Assembly: GCA_002368715.1 (NCBI GenBank)
Contig: DFEO01000089.1
Span: 1-10,787 of the forward strand
Direction of reading: 5' to 3'
DNA from: Ruminococcus sp. UBA3800
GTDB lineage: Bacteria > Bacillota > Clostridia > Oscillospirales > Ruminococcaceae
DNA length: 10,787 nt
In this document: positions 4,580 through 10,027 of the stretch, piece after piece
How positions within the stretch are numbered: position 1 is the first letter of the stretch
How the letters are laid out: each line of letters opens with the position of its first letter
The notes under the pieces: generated by a model
What the model was told of the DNA's origin: nothing
What the model saw: only the letters and a program-made list of their open reading frames with translations
The model's database searches: none
Program-made: the position numbers and the translations under genes

Positions 4580-7186
4580 TCACCAAAGATACCTGGTTCC
4601 CTTCAGATGTGACTTGATCGCTGTGATGTCTCCGGTCTGGACTGCTCCGTTTGCGTCTGCATCTGCACAAGCCACCTGGTATTGTTCAAGATTTACCGTC
4701 CTCTTGAGATACTTCTTTACCAGCGTGATGTCTGCCGTGTTGACTGAGCCGTTTGCATCGACGTCACCTTTCAGGCACAAAACGATCCCGGGGTCGGAAG
4801 TAAGATTGCCATTCGAGACTGTGACAGTGTATGTCCTTGTTACAAAGCTGTCCGATGAAACTGTCAGTGTGTAAGTTCCGTTTGCAAGACCCGAAGGTAC
4901 GGAGAACTGCTTGTTCGAGGTCGTTACTGTCTTTGTTGTCGAGCCCTTGAATGTGAGCTTGACCTGATTGTTTGCATATGCGTAGCTTCTGTCAGTGGTC
5001 TTTGTGCCTGTCTTCAGCGTTATGCTGTAAACGGCTGTCTGACCTATCGGGTCGGTATAGTTGTCCTTATACTCAGCTCCGCATACCGAACACTTGTGGA
5101 GCGTGTAGCCCTGTTCGGTGGCAGTGGGTGCAACGACCGTGGTCTGATAGCTGTGCTCTGCAAGAGGTATATCCTGAATATACTTGGTCTGGGTGGAGTA
5201 AGCACCGTTCGAGAAGGTGGCTGTATAACGTGTCGTTCCCATGGTCTTGCAGGTCGCCGGTGTACTTACAGACGAGTTCACTGTCGCACTTACGGTCTCG
5301 ATGTGGCTCTTATCTCTCGAGCAGATCCTCTTTCCTGTGCAGCTCTTGCCGTCTGCGCTCCAGGTATAAGTCGGGCTGCCCCAGCTGTGGCCGGCGGCTA
5401 TAACTGTCGATGCCTGAGTTATCTCCTTGGTGCAGGCCGAATCGCTGAAATACTTGTTGCACCTCGAGCAGTACCAGTAAGCGATATTTCCTGCGCTCGT
5501 GCAGGTGGCTGCCTTTGCGGCAACAGCCTGTTTGTTGTGGCCAAGAGCACTTATAACCGTGCTTGCCTGAGTTATCTCACTGGTCATAGCGCTGTTGCTG
5601 AAATACTTCTTGCACACAGGGCAATACCAGTAAGCGGTGTTTCCTGCGCTCGTGCAGGTAGCTGCCTTTGCAGAAACGGACTGCTTGGTGTGGCCTGTCG
5701 CATTGATAGTTGCTGTCTCGGTCTCACCGCAGGTGCAGTATCTCTTCTTCTCACCAGCTGTTGTGCATGTCGCAGCCTTGGTCACTTCCCACTCGCCGAA
5801 GGAATGGGTATGAGAGCCTCCGCCTATGATATCGTAATTGACATTATTCTGCTGTGCATAAGCATGGGCAGTGGAATCCTCGTAAACATGGAGAGTAAAG
5901 TCGTTCTTTACGGAGGTCGTGCTTGAATAGCCGACGCAGCGTGTGCCCATAGCACAGCTGGTCGAGGGTATGGTCATCTCGGTCATCCAGTTGCAGCCTG
6001 TAAAGCAGTCTGCACCGATAGATGTGATACCGGAAGGAAGTGTTACTTTATTAAGTCCGTCATCAAAAGCCGAGCAGCCGGAGAAAGCCTCCTCGTCCAG
6101 CACTCTCAGAGTGTTCGGGAATGTCACTGTTCTTAATCCCTTACAGCCGCTGAATGCCTTGAAGCCTATGCTCGTGCATCCCTCCTGGAAGGTCAGCGAG
6201 GTAAGAGCGTCGTTGTTTGCAAAAACCTGATCTGCTATATGCACTGCCTTTGCAGGGATAGTGACGCTTGTCAGTGAGGAGTCGGCATAAACGAGCCAGT
6301 TGCCGACATATTTAAGCGTACCGCTCTGTCCTGTAAGAATGGGAGCATTGTCAAACGCAGAAACGCCAACGCTTGTGACCGACGATGGTATGCTGAATGT
6401 CGAATCGACAGCAGTGTTTTTGAAAGCAAAATCTCCGATCCGTGTCAGATTCGATGACATATTCACGGTCTTCAGATTTGTGCAGCCGTCAAAAAGGCTG
6501 TTCGGTATAGTCTTGACAGCGCTGAGGTTTGCGGTGGTCAGGGCTGTGCAGCCGCCGAACACACGGTTGCCGATATACTTGATACCGTCAGGAACGGTAA
6601 CGCTGCCAAGAGATGTGCAGCCGCTGAAAGCTGAGTCTGCAAGGCCTATCGTGCCTGACTTAACGCTGGCGCTTGTTATTCCGGAATCTGCGCCTATCGC
6701 CCAGTTGCCGGCATAAATGATGCCGCTCTGATCGTTATAAAAAGAAGTTCCCTTGAACGCCTGATAACCTATGGATGTAACTGTCGAAGGGATCTGAACG
6801 CTCGTTATGCTCGAACAACCCATAAATGCCTGCGATGGGATGCTGGTTACACCCTCTTCAAAAACGATCTTTGTTGCAGTGCCGTTTGACAAAGCAGGCG
6901 AAAACATTTTCAGCAATGACGCTGTGGCTGTTCCTGTAATGGTATAGCCGTCCACCTTTGCCGGATAGGTCAGAGTTGCAGAATTCTCCAGAAAAGCAGA
7001 TATAGTTGCTGTTTTTGCCGTGTCATTGGTCGACAGCTTGTATTTTCCGTCCGAAGATGTGATCGTTGCTGCCTCTGCGACCATATTGCTGCGGCCGAAA
7101 ACATCCTGAAAGACCTCAGCGGGTAGCCCTGCACCTGCAAACGCCATTGACAGCGCCAGAGCGCAGGCTGCCAGTTTCTTTTTCAT
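4580..7186 (-). CDS. Secreted leucine-rich-repeat (BspA-like) protein with CxxC repeats and a C-terminal type I dockerin
   Basis: The 868-residue product starts with a signal peptide (MKKKLAACALALSMAFAGAG, mature end probably before about 40). Residues about 105-455 are BspA/LRR_5 repeats (patterns such as AFSGCTSLGSVTVP, TSIGYQAFKG). Residues about 459-705 hold Cys-rich repeats, two of which form a 51-residue tandem duplication with H-x11-C-x10-C-x2-C spacing. A beta-rich Thr/Ser region (718-798) leads to a dockerin (805-868). Its two calcium loops are D808-D810-N812-N816-D819 and D842-D844-N846-Q850-D853, each followed by a helix. No catalytic domain is recognised, so it is probably a binding or adhesion protein docked by a cohesin. 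The ATG at 7186 has GGAGGT seven bases upstream. It is monocistronic, with promoter 7275-7303 and terminator 4498-4549. The dockerin call is strong; the ligand is unknown. Confidence 0.92.
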   Translation of the reverse strand: MKKKLAACALALSMAFAGAGLPAEVFQDVFGRSNMVAEAATITSSDGKYKLSTNDTAKTATISAFLENSATLTYPAKVDGYTITGTATASLLKMFSPALSNGTATKIVFEEGVTSIPSQAFMGCSSITSVQIPSTVTSIGYQAFKGTSFYNDQSGIIYAGNWAIGADSGITSASVKSGTIGLADSAFSGCTSLGSVTVPDGIKYIGNRVFGGCTALTTANLSAVKTIPNSLFDGCTNLKTVNMSSNLTRIGDFAFKNTAVDSTFSIPSSVTSVGVSAFDNAPILTGQSGTLKYVGNWLVYADSSLTSVTIPAKAVHIADQVFANNDALTSLTFQEGCTSIGFKAFSGCKGLRTVTFPNTLRVLDEEAFSGCSAFDDGLNKVTLPSGITSIGADCFTGCNWMTEMTIPSTSCAMGTRCVGYSSTTSVKNDFTLHVYEDSTAHAYAQQNNVNYDIIGGGSHTHSFGEWEVTKAATCTTAGEKKRYCTCGETETATINATGHTKQSVSAKAATCTSAGNTAYWYCPVCKKYFSNSAMTSEITQASTVISALGHNKQAVAAKAATCTSAGNIAYWYCSRCNKYFSDSACTKEITQASTVIAAGHSWGSPTYTWSADGKSCTGKRICSRDKSHIETVSATVNSSVSTPATCKTMGTTRYTATFSNGAYSTQTKYIQDIPLAEHSYQTTVVAPTATEQGYTLHKCSVCGAEYKDNYTDPIGQTAVYSITLKTGTKTTDRSYAYANNQVKLTFKGSTTKTVTTSNKQFSVPSGLANGTYTLTVSSDSFVTRTYTVTVSNGNLTSDPGIVLCLKGDVDANGSVNTADITLVKKYLKRTVNLEQYQVACADADANGAVQTGDITAIKSHLKGTRYLW
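5390..5692 (-). repeat. Tandem duplication of a 51-residue Cys repeat in the dockerin-LRR gene
   Basis: Protein residues 499-549 and 550-599 are nearly the same (AAKAATCTSAGN-type core, YWYC-xx-C-xKYFS, EITQASTVI). The coding DNA is also similar, for example TTTCCTGCGCTCGTGCAGGT occurs in both units (about 5488 and 5640). This points to a fairly recent in-frame duplication of about 153 bp. Confidence 0.85.
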
Positions 7187-7274
7187 ATAATGACCTCCAT
7201 TTTTATCAGGCGCTGCCTGGACCCCAAAGCTTCAAAGCGAATGGTGATCCAAGCATTGCCGCTGAACTATTAAA

Positions 7275-7303
7275 ATTATAGCATACCGTATAAAAAAAGT
7301 CAA
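7275..7303 (-). promoter_or_regulatory. Promoter for the dockerin-LRR gene
   Basis: On the minus strand, TTGACT (7298-7303) and TATAAT (7275-7280) are 17 bp apart. The predicted start is near 7268, leaving a leader of about 80 nt. Close to the ribosome-binding site the leader has a small hairpin, CAGGC/GCCTG (7208-7220), which might tune translation. Confidence 0.85.
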
Positions 7304-7369
7304 CAAAGCATATATAAAATTTACGCCTTTCAAAAGCCGCTCCTTTGGGCGAAATGTGTATATCCGGAC

Positions 7370-7401
7370 AAAAAAATGCCCCTCCCCGAGGGGAAGGGCA
7401 T
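7370..7401 (-). terminator. Terminator of the cohesin-like surface gene
   Basis: On the minus strand, ATGCCC-T-TCCCC pairs with GGGGA-G-GGGCAT (7376-7401) with one mismatch and a tight loop, followed by seven T residues (complement of 7370-7376). It lies 24 bases beyond the stop codon at 7425. Confidence 0.88.
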
Positions 7402-7424
7402 AAACATTTTAAACGTTCATACGT

Positions 7425-9926
7425 TTACTTTTGTTTTTTCTTTACAATAGCGAGTGCTGCTATGATAGCTGCTCCTGCCATTGCTGTTCCTGCTGCCGCA
7501 CCTGTTGTAGGATTGGTAGCGGTGTTTGCAGCTGTTGCAGCGCTTGTTGTGGAAGCTGCCTTGCTGCTTGTGTCAGCCTTGGATGAGGAATCCTTTGAAG
7601 AATCCTTGGAATCTGCCGACTTATCAGAAGACTCTGTGCTCTCTGTGCTCTCGGTGCTCTCTGTGGATTCTGTGGACTCTGTGGACTCTGTGCTCTCATC
7701 GGAAGAAACGTCCTGCTTACCTGTTGCAGGGATGACCTCTTCCTCGAAGTGCTCTTCATTTCTCTTGCAGACACGTCTCTTGAGGCCGTCCTCAGTCTCT
7801 GTGGGTTCGGTAATTACCTCCCACTCGCCCCAGTCGTGACCACCGAGGTCAGGGATAACAATATCCTCATCAGAAACCTCTGTAAGAGTTTCGTCCTCTT
7901 CTTTGATGAACTTCTTGCCGCAATCCTCACAAAGCTCATAAGCGATGTTGCCGTCCTCTGTGCAGGTAGCGGGTATTTCATCTACATGAGTAAGATTAAC
8001 GTGGATGCCTGTTGCAGGGATAGTCGGGATCGCATCTATCGGGTCGCCTTCCATATCGAACAGAGCTCCGCAGACTGTACACTTCTGATAAGAATAGTAT
8101 CCGGCTTCTCCGCAGGTAGGATCCTTGCCCTCTACGGTCTCAAGCTCGTGCTCATCAGTCTTATGAAGTGTAACTGTTTTACGGTCGAGCTCCGCGCCGC
8201 AGCCGTCTCTCTTGCAGTAGAGGACCATATCTACCGAGCCATCATCCTTGCAGGTAGGAGGTACCAGTGTAGACTCATCCCTTACATAATCGCCGGTATC
8301 ATCATGACCAAGCTTTCCGATAACAGGTACTGCCTGAAGCTCGTTATCGTTTTCATCGATAATCTTGCCGCAGACACTACACTTCTTGTAGAAAGCGTGT
8401 CCATCCTCAGTGCAGGTAGGTTCAGCGCCAACGAATGTTGTATAGTCATGAACTCCTGTCGGATCAAGAGTAACGGTTCTGCGTCCGATCTCTTCGCCGC
8501 AGCCGTCTCTCTTACAGTAAAGGACTTCATCGACCGAGCCGCTGGCTCCGCAGGTAGGTTCTACAAGTGTAGACTCATCTCTTACCCAATCGCCGGTATC
8601 ATCATGACCCAGCGGACGTGTAGTAGCTGCTGCATCGATCTCTGTCGTACCTTCTGCATCAGCAAAAAGCTTGTTGCAGACCGAGCACTTGTAGCAAGCC
8701 TCATGTCCGGGCTCTGTACAGGTCGCAGCCTCAGCTTCAACAGGCACGATCGTGTGCGGTGCCAGAGCAATAGGAGTAGATGTCCTGCTCAGCTCTGTCT
8801 CACAGTTACTGCAGTAAACGACACTGTCATAGCTGCCGGCAACCGTGCAGGTAGAAGCAACATAGTTTTCTACAACAGCTTCTGCCGGAACGTGATCCTT
8901 CTTAGGATCAACGGGAACTTCGGTTATCTCTGTCTGACCGTTTGCATCAGCGAACATCTTGCCGCAGGTCTCGCACTTCCAGTAGTCCTTTGTTCCTGCT
9001 GCCTGACAGGTTGCCGGTGTTCCGGGCACCTTGGTCAGATCCTCAGCTGTGTGAACGATAGCCACTGTTACGACTGTTGTAGCCTGAACGCCTTGCTTTG
9101 AAGCCTTTGTGATGATGTTTGCAACACCGTCAGCAACGGCTGTTACAGTTCCGTCAGCAGAAACTGTTGCGACATCAGTCTTATCGCTCTCAAAGGTCAC
9201 AGACTTGTCCGTAGTATCATCGGGGTTAACAGTAGCTCCGATAGTAAAGGTCTCGCCGTGCTTGGTAAGAGTCTTCGTCGTAGGATCTACCGTTACCGAC
9301 TCAGGATCGACAACGTTGACAGTAACAGGTGTTTCTTCTTCTTCATGGAAGCTTTCATCGCCGTATACGATAGACTGTGTTTCGTCACTGCCGACAACGA
9401 AATTGACCTGATTATCAATGTCCGGATCGAGAGTGACTGTCAGATTGCCCGAAAAATCGTTGTTTACCGTACACTGGAAGGTAACAAGAGGCGTCTTTGC
9501 AAGCGGTGTCGCAATAGGCGTATTGTTTCCGTCATCATCAAGGAAGAAACCGGTGAAGATTTTACCGTCTTCTCCTTCCTCAAGAGCGCTCGGATCATAG
9601 TTCCAGTAATACTCTAGATCCTCACTGTTCACCCATTCATCAACGATGCTAGACATTTCAAGTCCAAATCCCTGCTTCTTGCCTTTTTTAACAAAGGTAA
9701 GACCATCGGGGATATAAAACCCAACGAAGATGTTGTTGAAACCTTCGCCGCCGGTAACTTCTAACGACACTGTATATGTAATTGTATCGCCAGGGGCAGC
9801 CGTTGTCTTGTCAGGCTCGATGTAGAACTTAACAGTCGGTGCAGCTTCAGACGCTGAAACATAGACCGAAGGCACAGTGCTCAAAGCCATAGCCGCAGCA
9901 AGCAGTGCACTAAAAGCCTTTTTCAT
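7425..9926 (-). CDS. Sortase-anchored surface protein with cohesin-like, Big_2-like and CxxC-repeat domains
   Basis: With the ATG at 9926 the protein has 833 residues. A signal peptide covers about 1-26. Residues about 30-205 form a beta-sandwich region resembling cohesin domains (APGDTITYTVSLEV, NNIFVGFYIPDGLTF, later TPLVTFQCTV). Residues about 207-291 look like a Big_2 immunoglobulin-like domain (DVATVSADGTVTAVADG). Eight Cys repeats follow (about 300-690), most with T-C-x10-C-x2-C; two use C-x4-C (CKRDGC). A Ser-Thr-Glu stalk (745-766) and a Ser/Ala/Thr linker lead to NPTTG (805-809), a hydrophobic helix and KKKQK, a variant sortase sorting signal. No enzymatic domain is seen. The start at 9926 has AAGGAG eight bases upstream and begins the signal peptide; the frame extends to an ATG at 9989, but that lies at the transcription start. 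The cohesin assignment is tentative. Confidence 0.85.
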   Translation of the reverse strand: MKKAFSALLAAAMALSTVPSVYVSASEAAPTVKFYIEPDKTTAAPGDTITYTVSLEVTGGEGFNNIFVGFYIPDGLTFVKKGKKQGFGLEMSSIVDEWVNSEDLEYYWNYDPSALEEGEDGKIFTGFFLDDDGNNTPIATPLAKTPLVTFQCTVNNDFSGNLTVTLDPDIDNQVNFVVGSDETQSIVYGDESFHEEEETPVTVNVVDPESVTVDPTTKTLTKHGETFTIGATVNPDDTTDKSVTFESDKTDVATVSADGTVTAVADGVANIITKASKQGVQATTVVTVAIVHTAEDLTKVPGTPATCQAAGTKDYWKCETCGKMFADANGQTEITEVPVDPKKDHVPAEAVVENYVASTCTVAGSYDSVVYCSNCETELSRTSTPIALAPHTIVPVEAEAATCTEPGHEACYKCSVCNKLFADAEGTTEIDAAATTRPLGHDDTGDWVRDESTLVEPTCGASGSVDEVLYCKRDGCGEEIGRRTVTLDPTGVHDYTTFVGAEPTCTEDGHAFYKKCSVCGKIIDENDNELQAVPVIGKLGHDDTGDYVRDESTLVPPTCKDDGSVDMVLYCKRDGCGAELDRKTVTLHKTDEHELETVEGKDPTCGEAGYYSYQKCTVCGALFDMEGDPIDAIPTIPATGIHVNLTHVDEIPATCTEDGNIAYELCEDCGKKFIKEEDETLTEVSDEDIVIPDLGGHDWGEWEVITEPTETEDGLKRRVCKRNEEHFEEEVIPATGKQDVSSDESTESTESTESTESTESTESTESSDKSADSKDSSKDSSSKADTSSKAASTTSAATAANTATNPTTGAAAGTAMAGAAIIAALAIVKKKQK
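7636..7698 (-). repeat. Seven 9-bp units encoding a Ser-Thr-Glu stalk
   Basis: Seven imperfect copies of a 9-bp unit (GTGCTCTCT or GTGGACTCT on the plus strand) encode successive Ser-Thr-Glu triplets, residues about 745-766. Being a multiple of three, gain or loss of units changes the stalk length without shifting the frame. Confidence 0.9.
8007..8612 (-). repeat. Tandem duplication of a 300-bp two-repeat unit in the cohesin-like surface gene
   Basis: Residues 439-538 and 539-638 are a duplicated 100-residue unit, each containing one C-x4-C repeat (LYCKRDGCG) followed by one C-x2-C repeat. The DNA also matches at a 300-bp offset, for example ATCGCCGGTATCATCATGAC at 8588 and 8288, and CCGCAGCCGTCTCTCTT near 8501 and 8201. 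Confidence 0.88.
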
Positions 9927-9998
9927 ATAACTTTCTCCTTCTCTTAATATTAGTCCTGTCGGCAGAAAACAGATATTATCCGCCAACATACCATGTAC

Positions 9999-10027
9999 AT
10001 TATATCATAACAATAATTATTTGTCAA
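9999..10027 (-). promoter_or_regulatory. Promoter for the cohesin-like surface gene
   Basis: On the minus strand, a perfect TTGACA (10022-10027) and a perfect TATAAT (9999-10004) are 17 bp apart, the full vegetative consensus. Transcription would start near 9992, leaving a leader of about 66 nt before the ATG at 9926. This suggests high constitutive expression unless repressed. Confidence 0.9.

Follow-up and report, generated by a model that had tools for sequence, protein, structure and literature searches.

The stretch of DNA examined here (the window) is the whole of contig C118 (DFEO01000089.1; 10,787 nucleotides) of Ruminococcus sp. UBA3800, whose genome (designated G000) comprises 1.84 Mb on 175 contigs and is 80.2% complete. 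Two neighbouring genes at positions 7425-9926 and 4580-7186, followed by argS, are predicted to encode a wall-anchored single-cohesin protein of 833 amino acids (the wall protein) and a secreted protein of 868 amino acids which combines leucine-rich repeats (LRRs) with a dockerin (the LRR-dockerin protein). Both open reading frames lie where the initial annotation, made from the sequence alone, had placed them, and both are on the minus strand. In the reading preferred here, to which we give a probability of about 60%, the wall protein is an anchored receptor which catches the LRR-dockerin protein and probably other proteins bearing dockerins of the main class of the genome, its putative cohesin being the receptor of that class. 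The LRR-dockerin protein would be one client among several, because its own dockerin belongs to the main class.

The N-terminal domain of the wall protein (residues 27-207; 9306-9848, minus strand) is very probably a divergent cohesin. The initial annotation had proposed a cohesin-like region here and had suggested structure prediction as a check. Two AlphaFold models of residues 27-207, one from an alignment of 13 sequences (predicted local distance difference test score, pLDDT, of 82.8) and one from an alignment of 10 sequences, three of them shared with the first (pLDDT 85.6), both adopted the cohesin jelly-roll fold and not a different fold, which confirmed the proposal at the fold level. 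In VIA searches, cohesins made up 49 of the 50 listed rows for the first model, the remaining row being the CLIPPER domain 9ifr, and 48 of the 50 for the second, the others being 9ifr and the pilin BcpA. Foldseek returned cohesins in 48 of the first 50 rows for the first model (the others were 9ifr, at rank 1, and an integrin) and in 49 of the first 50 for the second (9ifr stood at rank 4).

Homology to known cohesins was also found at the sequence level. A profile of 13 sequences (A3), which included none of the Pfam cohesins of G000 and one sequence (L126) barely above the cut-off of the Pfam Cohesin family (PF00963; 24.1 bits), matched the cohesin 3l8q among the PDB sequences at an E value of 8.7e-4 (the best match, 9ifr at 4.5e-4, covered a shorter stretch) and the cohesin on contig C108 of the same genome at 9.4e-4. 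Comparison of the domain alignment with three cohesins by hhalign gave a probability of 96.7. Five relatives of 558 residues, listed with Cohesin and Big_2 and none of them a row of A3, matched this profile over positions 3 to 155/156 (58.7-64.1 bits). The three that were scanned with Pfam (P0229, P0239 and P0245) scored 35.3, 33.8 and 27.1 bits for Cohesin on the residues matched by A3, and the cohesin precedes Big_2 in them, which is also the order in the wall protein. Three of five repeat fragments of P0005/P0051 were above the Pfam cut-off (24.6, 25.8 and 28.2 bits), one reached 18.9 bits and one had no match; among eight fragments of other wall-family loci, L126 reached 24.6 bits, four fell below the cut-off (15.8-23.2 bits) and three gave no cohesin match. 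A single-sequence search of the PDB sequences with the window domain returned only 9ifr (E 0.11), and a phmmer search of the PDB with the whole of P0005 returned nothing at E values up to 0.01. Iterative profile searching from the window domain strayed into DUF11-type repeat proteins (P0009, P0010, P0011 and P0013), which were excluded from profiles A1, A3 and A5.

Searches for the domain used the window sequence across the genus (29 genomes, matches in 4) and profile A1 across the family (297 genomes, matches in 26, at 34 places); dockerins were sought by separate searches. Neighbourhoods were annotated for 23 of the 34 places and for a locus in G016 (24 sources); two more places (C168 in G000, C10 in G024) were also examined, and the nine left out were weak. 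The domain was found at more than 100 bits against A3 at 11 loci, scores which are inflated in that nearly every one of these domains (one or two excepted) is itself a row of A3 or near-identical to one; seven of the strong loci were new finds, recovered at 36.7-112.9 bits by A1, in which they are not represented. A dockerin gene was directly adjacent on the same strand at 10 of the 11 loci (the window, G024, G010, G016, two loci of G250, G302, G091, G183 and G062), the neighbour in G062 having been masked initially by an overlapping reading frame and found on separate reading. By chance approximately 0.09 such loci would be expected, a rough figure based on a density of 0.9 genes per kb and on the loci being independent. 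The dockerin neighbour carries LRRs in the window, G024, G010, G016 and the C15 locus of G250, and a GH25 domain at four of the ten adjacent loci (G250-C12, G302, G091 and G183); in G062 it has a region which is cohesin-like by eye and has no Pfam name. The cohesin gene precedes the dockerin gene in the window, G024 and G010, where each pair is followed by argS, and the order is reversed at the other seven loci; flanking genes differ between genera. A dockerin gene beside a divergent-cohesin gene is thus supported as a recurrent arrangement.

The 13 weaker sources had an adjoining dockerin gene in two cases, L197 (a pair of the C108 type described below) and L206 (a cohesin below the Pfam threshold, at 19.9 bits). 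Co-occurrence of the two domains across genomes is weak evidence: dockerins were present in 132 of the 297 family genomes and in all nine genomes, from four genera, with an A1 match of at least 36 bits. At the level of the order (394 genomes), matches above 100 bits were confined to the domain's own family (those domains being rows of A3); the next best, in a genome of another family (G630), scored 40.7 bits over positions 2-155, and many of the remaining matches were partial. Six of the 14 loci read after a search of the 29 genus genomes with a wider profile were anchored cohesins of the C108 type; the relatives in G009, G014, G002 and G023 described below also came from this reading.

Which dockerins the wall cohesin might recognise was judged from the residues at positions 10, 11, 17 and 18 of each dockerin repeat, numbered as in the cellulosome literature. 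The first repeat reads T-x/K-x in six of the seven dockerins of G000, namely those of the LRR-dockerin protein of the window, a second LRR protein, a GH5 protein, a GH25 protein, a protein on C93 (transglutaminase-like by eye, with only the dockerin found by Pfam) and a cohesin-dockerin protein on C168, so that the window dockerin shares its class with five of the six others. The seventh, on C108, reads VT/MR. In G010, which has 11 dockerin matches (one fragment was left out of the table), AS/KS or AS/KA was found in the first repeat of nine of the ten dockerins examined, spanning GH5, GH25 and LRR proteins. At these positions the two species thus differ across their dockerins as a whole, the first repeat being mostly T-x/K-x in G000 and AS/KS or AS/KA in G010. 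In many main-class dockerins, across genera, the second loop is followed directly by a terminal Leu/Ile/Met-Trp (YLW, RIW, LLW, LMW; 4583-4600 in the window), an ending absent from C108-type dockerins.

It is rather improbable that the two window proteins form a dedicated pair, in which the wall protein would display the LRR-dockerin protein only, as an adhesin. Such a pair would fit the adjacency of the two genes ahead of argS in three genomes and the LRR-dockerin neighbours in G016 and at one G250 locus, but at its recognition positions the LRR dockerin is similar to other dockerins of the genome, including those of the GH5 and GH25 proteins, and a GH25-dockerin protein takes the neighbouring place at four of the ten adjacent loci. 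The initial annotation had suggested that the wall protein displays the LRR-dockerin protein for adhesion. This reading is supported in part, by the cohesin domain and the recurrent adjacency; exclusivity and adhesion are not supported as stated, given the shared dockerin class, the GH25 neighbours and two further Pfam cohesin proteins in the genome.

Other findings weigh against the preferred reading and were considered alongside it. The window domain itself had no match to PF00963 at E values up to 10; its only Pfam match was a partial one to DUF11 (23.2 bits; cut-off 24.6), and the CLIPPER domain 9ifr, from a fibrillar adhesin of a Gram-negative bacterium, was nearly as good a structural match as the cohesins. 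The CLIPPER domain is not known to bind dockerins. In addition, G256 lacks a dockerin neighbour although 20 dockerin matches were found in its genome, and in G014 no dockerin gene is seen on the visible side of an anchored relative (62.1 bits), the contig ending 386 bases away on the other. These relatives, together with the position of the DUF11 and CLIPPER matches at the N-terminal strands, would suit a domain that has kept the cohesin fold and lost dockerin binding, serving as a stalk or in ligand binding as DUF11- or CLIPPER-like domains may. We regard this as quite unlikely, as adjacency to dockerin genes recurs and G000, G024 and G009 each encode a protein that joins a domain of this kind to a dockerin. 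Two genera supply nine of the 11 strong loci, so the loci are not independent. The wall gene and the LRR-dockerin gene look like separate transcription units, because a promoter-like site was found for each and a terminator-like hairpin separates the two.

A further difficulty is that G000 encodes two Pfam cohesin proteins besides the wall protein, an NPNTG-anchored one on C108 (34.7 bits) and a membrane-anchored one on C156 (24.1 bits, at the cut-off of 24.1), either of which is a possible receptor. Their scores, at or above the Pfam cut-off, would favour docking of the LRR dockerin on one of these two, the wall cohesin then having another partner. This alternative is unlikely, if slightly more credible than the other two. 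Against it, the C108-type cohesin adjoins a dockerin gene of its own in G000, G024, G010 and G019, and in the three of these genomes that were tabulated the product of that gene falls outside the main class (VT/MR in G000 and G024, VV/NR in G010). The C108-type cohesin has moreover been conserved while the main dockerin class changed, with identities between G000 and G010 of 68% for this cohesin, 40% for the wall cohesin and 83% for ArgS. Fast change is not special to the binding domains, since identity is also low over the remainder of the wall protein (51%) and over the LRR-dockerin protein as a whole (44%). The C108 cohesin gene stands head to head with the gene of an SH3-dockerin protein (L004; C108, 4194-8259).

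Divergent cohesin and dockerin were found within one protein in G000 (C168; L009, 834-2696, minus strand), G024 (C10; L095, 5471-7099, minus strand) and G009 (C19; L269, 5459-6913). The gene after the fusion is CotH-like by eye in G000 and G024; in G009 it encodes an LRR_5-dockerin protein on the same strand.

Under the receptor reading, the wall protein would act as a sortase-type wall-anchored receptor with the single divergent cohesin at its tip, the Ig-like domain, the Cys-rich repeats and a Ser/Thr-rich stalk spacing it from the wall. The LRR-dockerin protein would be exported without an anchor and caught at the surface, its dockerin docking on the wall cohesin in a calcium-dependent manner and its LRR region presumably meeting a ligand; the same receptor would probably also hold the GH5, GH25, second LRR and cohesin-dockerin proteins.

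The nearest known parallel is the sca cluster of R. flavefaciens, where the anchored single-cohesin protein ScaE lies beside the adhesion dockerin protein CttA (PMC4081043, PMC5301203). The wall protein may be of the same kind as ScaE, with one cohesin and a C-terminal NPTTG motif (a predicted anchor) that scores below the cut-off of the NCBIfam model. Unlike ScaE, which has a type III cohesin binding X-dockerins and others, it has a divergent cohesin with Big_2 and Cys-rich repeats, and its partner, unlike CttA, has LRRs and not carbohydrate-binding modules. The Sca2 and Sca5 proteins of the R. bromii amylosome are likewise cohesin proteins with a C-terminal sortase signal, and cells of that species capture a dockerin in a calcium-dependent manner (PMC5814915); the amylosome differs in that its clients are amylases and that Sca5 has two cohesins and other modules. 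The C168 protein of G000 resembles the adaptor ScaC in combining this cohesin domain with a dockerin, and differs in the Cys-rich repeats between the two.

LRR-dockerin proteins have precedents in R. flavefaciens FD-1, for which 28 leucine-rich-repeat entries are given among dockerin proteins in PMC2930009. Table 1 of PMC5301203 includes LRR-dockerins binding ScaA/ScaB cohesins and a group-2 LRR-dockerin binding ScaE and ScaH, and the same source reports that most LRR dockerins showed no interaction with the cohesins tested. Unlike these proteins, the LRR-dockerin gene of the window adjoins that of a candidate receptor. R. albus, according to PMC4081043 and PMC4300822, has many dockerins and at most one recognised cohesin. 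No description of the Cohesin-Big_2-Cys-repeat-anchor architecture or of the two-gene pairing was found in a literature search with partial coverage (titles and beginnings of abstracts), and what is new here is a Pfam-missed cohesin in this architecture together with the recurrent pairing.

The findings suggest a small display system which is not built solely for plant-fibre digestion, because the side-by-side arrangement recurs in relatives. If so, cohesin-dockerin pairing would serve to dress the cell with proteins beyond fibre-degrading enzymes, even where a genome has a single dockerin match. A Pfam-missed cohesin class marked by its gene neighbourhood is a binding-test candidate for orphan LRR dockerins and a lead for the R. 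albus puzzle. More tentatively, and with less confidence than in the receptor role itself, the two genes may be a self-contained display cassette of a Pfam-missed anchored cohesin and its own dockerin client, whose module is swapped by lineage (LRR adhesin-like, GH25 lysozyme-like or cohesin-like); in some species this could be nearly the sole cohesin-dockerin pair, unrelated to fibre digestion, and the orphan LRR dockerins of ruminococci could have their missing receptors in such cohesins.

All features given below are on the minus strand. The wall protein begins with a signal peptide (residues ~1-26; 9849-9926; by eye). The cohesin is followed by a Big_2 Ig-like domain (residues 210-284; 9075-9299; Pfam 39.3 bits) and by Cys-rich repeats of the pattern ATCT..G...Y..C..C (residues ~289-735; 7722-9062; six pattern matches, boundaries by eye), with 27 Cys in the whole protein. 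The sorting signal noted in the initial annotation was read in the sequence as NPTTG, a hydrophobic stretch and a KKKQK tail (residues 805-833; 7428-7514); the NCBIfam model Rumino_NPXTG (NF033846) scored 20.3 bits on residues 805-832, below its cut-off of 23.5. Translation probably does start at 9926, because AAGGAG lies just upstream and a promoter-like site ending at 9999 leaves too little room for an earlier ATG, at 9989.

The LRR-dockerin protein has a BspA-type LRR region (residues ~60-455; 5822-7009; LRR_5 208.5 bits in four stretches, outer limits by eye) and, judged by eye, a signal peptide for export. Next come Cys-rich repeats of the wall-protein kind (residues ~459-715; 5042-5812; two pattern matches, boundaries by eye) and a CarboxypepD_reg-like beta domain (residues 738-794; 4805-4975; Pfam 20.9 bits, below the cut-off of 32.3). 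The dockerin (residues 806-861; 4604-4771) is of type I and intact, as had been claimed, with 36.5 bits for Dockerin_1 (cut-off 22.9), the same place in the genome-wide search and two complete 12-residue F-hand calcium loops, DVDANGSVNTAD and DADANGAVQTGD. Pfam showed no enzyme domain above cut-off in either protein, in agreement with the initial annotation.

The wall gene is preceded by a promoter-like site TTGACA-17-TATAAT with TG before the second hexamer (9999-10027; 12/12) and followed by a terminator-like hairpin of 11 pairs (7376-7401), and the LRR-dockerin gene has a promoter-like site of 11/12 (7275-7303), all of them consensus matches only. The scan gave seven promoter-like sites in 6 kb, where 5.4 would be expected, and individual sites are therefore weak evidence, the 12/12 and 11/12 ones excepted. 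Neither protein was matched by PADLOC, and the window had no Rfam match at gathering scores.

The best named matches of the wall protein were from the metagenome-derived Ruminococcus sp. RUG14607 and RGIG4819 (roe deer reticulum), and 70 of the 75 loci from its homology search match only from residue 261 on. The Cys-rich repeat is common to both window proteins and frequent in gut bacteria; no named Pfam family scored above cut-off for it in the window proteins, and in one relative (P0197) Pfam lists RYYR-CCHC at 59.5 bits. A 285-residue NPXTG-anchored protein in G002 (23.9 bits; cut-off 23.5; C5, L250:1144-2001, minus strand) matched A3 distantly (24.0 bits), had no match among the PDB sequences and is a candidate missed cohesin. 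Its relative in G023 lies beside the same gene (alanine racemase by eye), and the two anchored proteins are distant relatives of the family.
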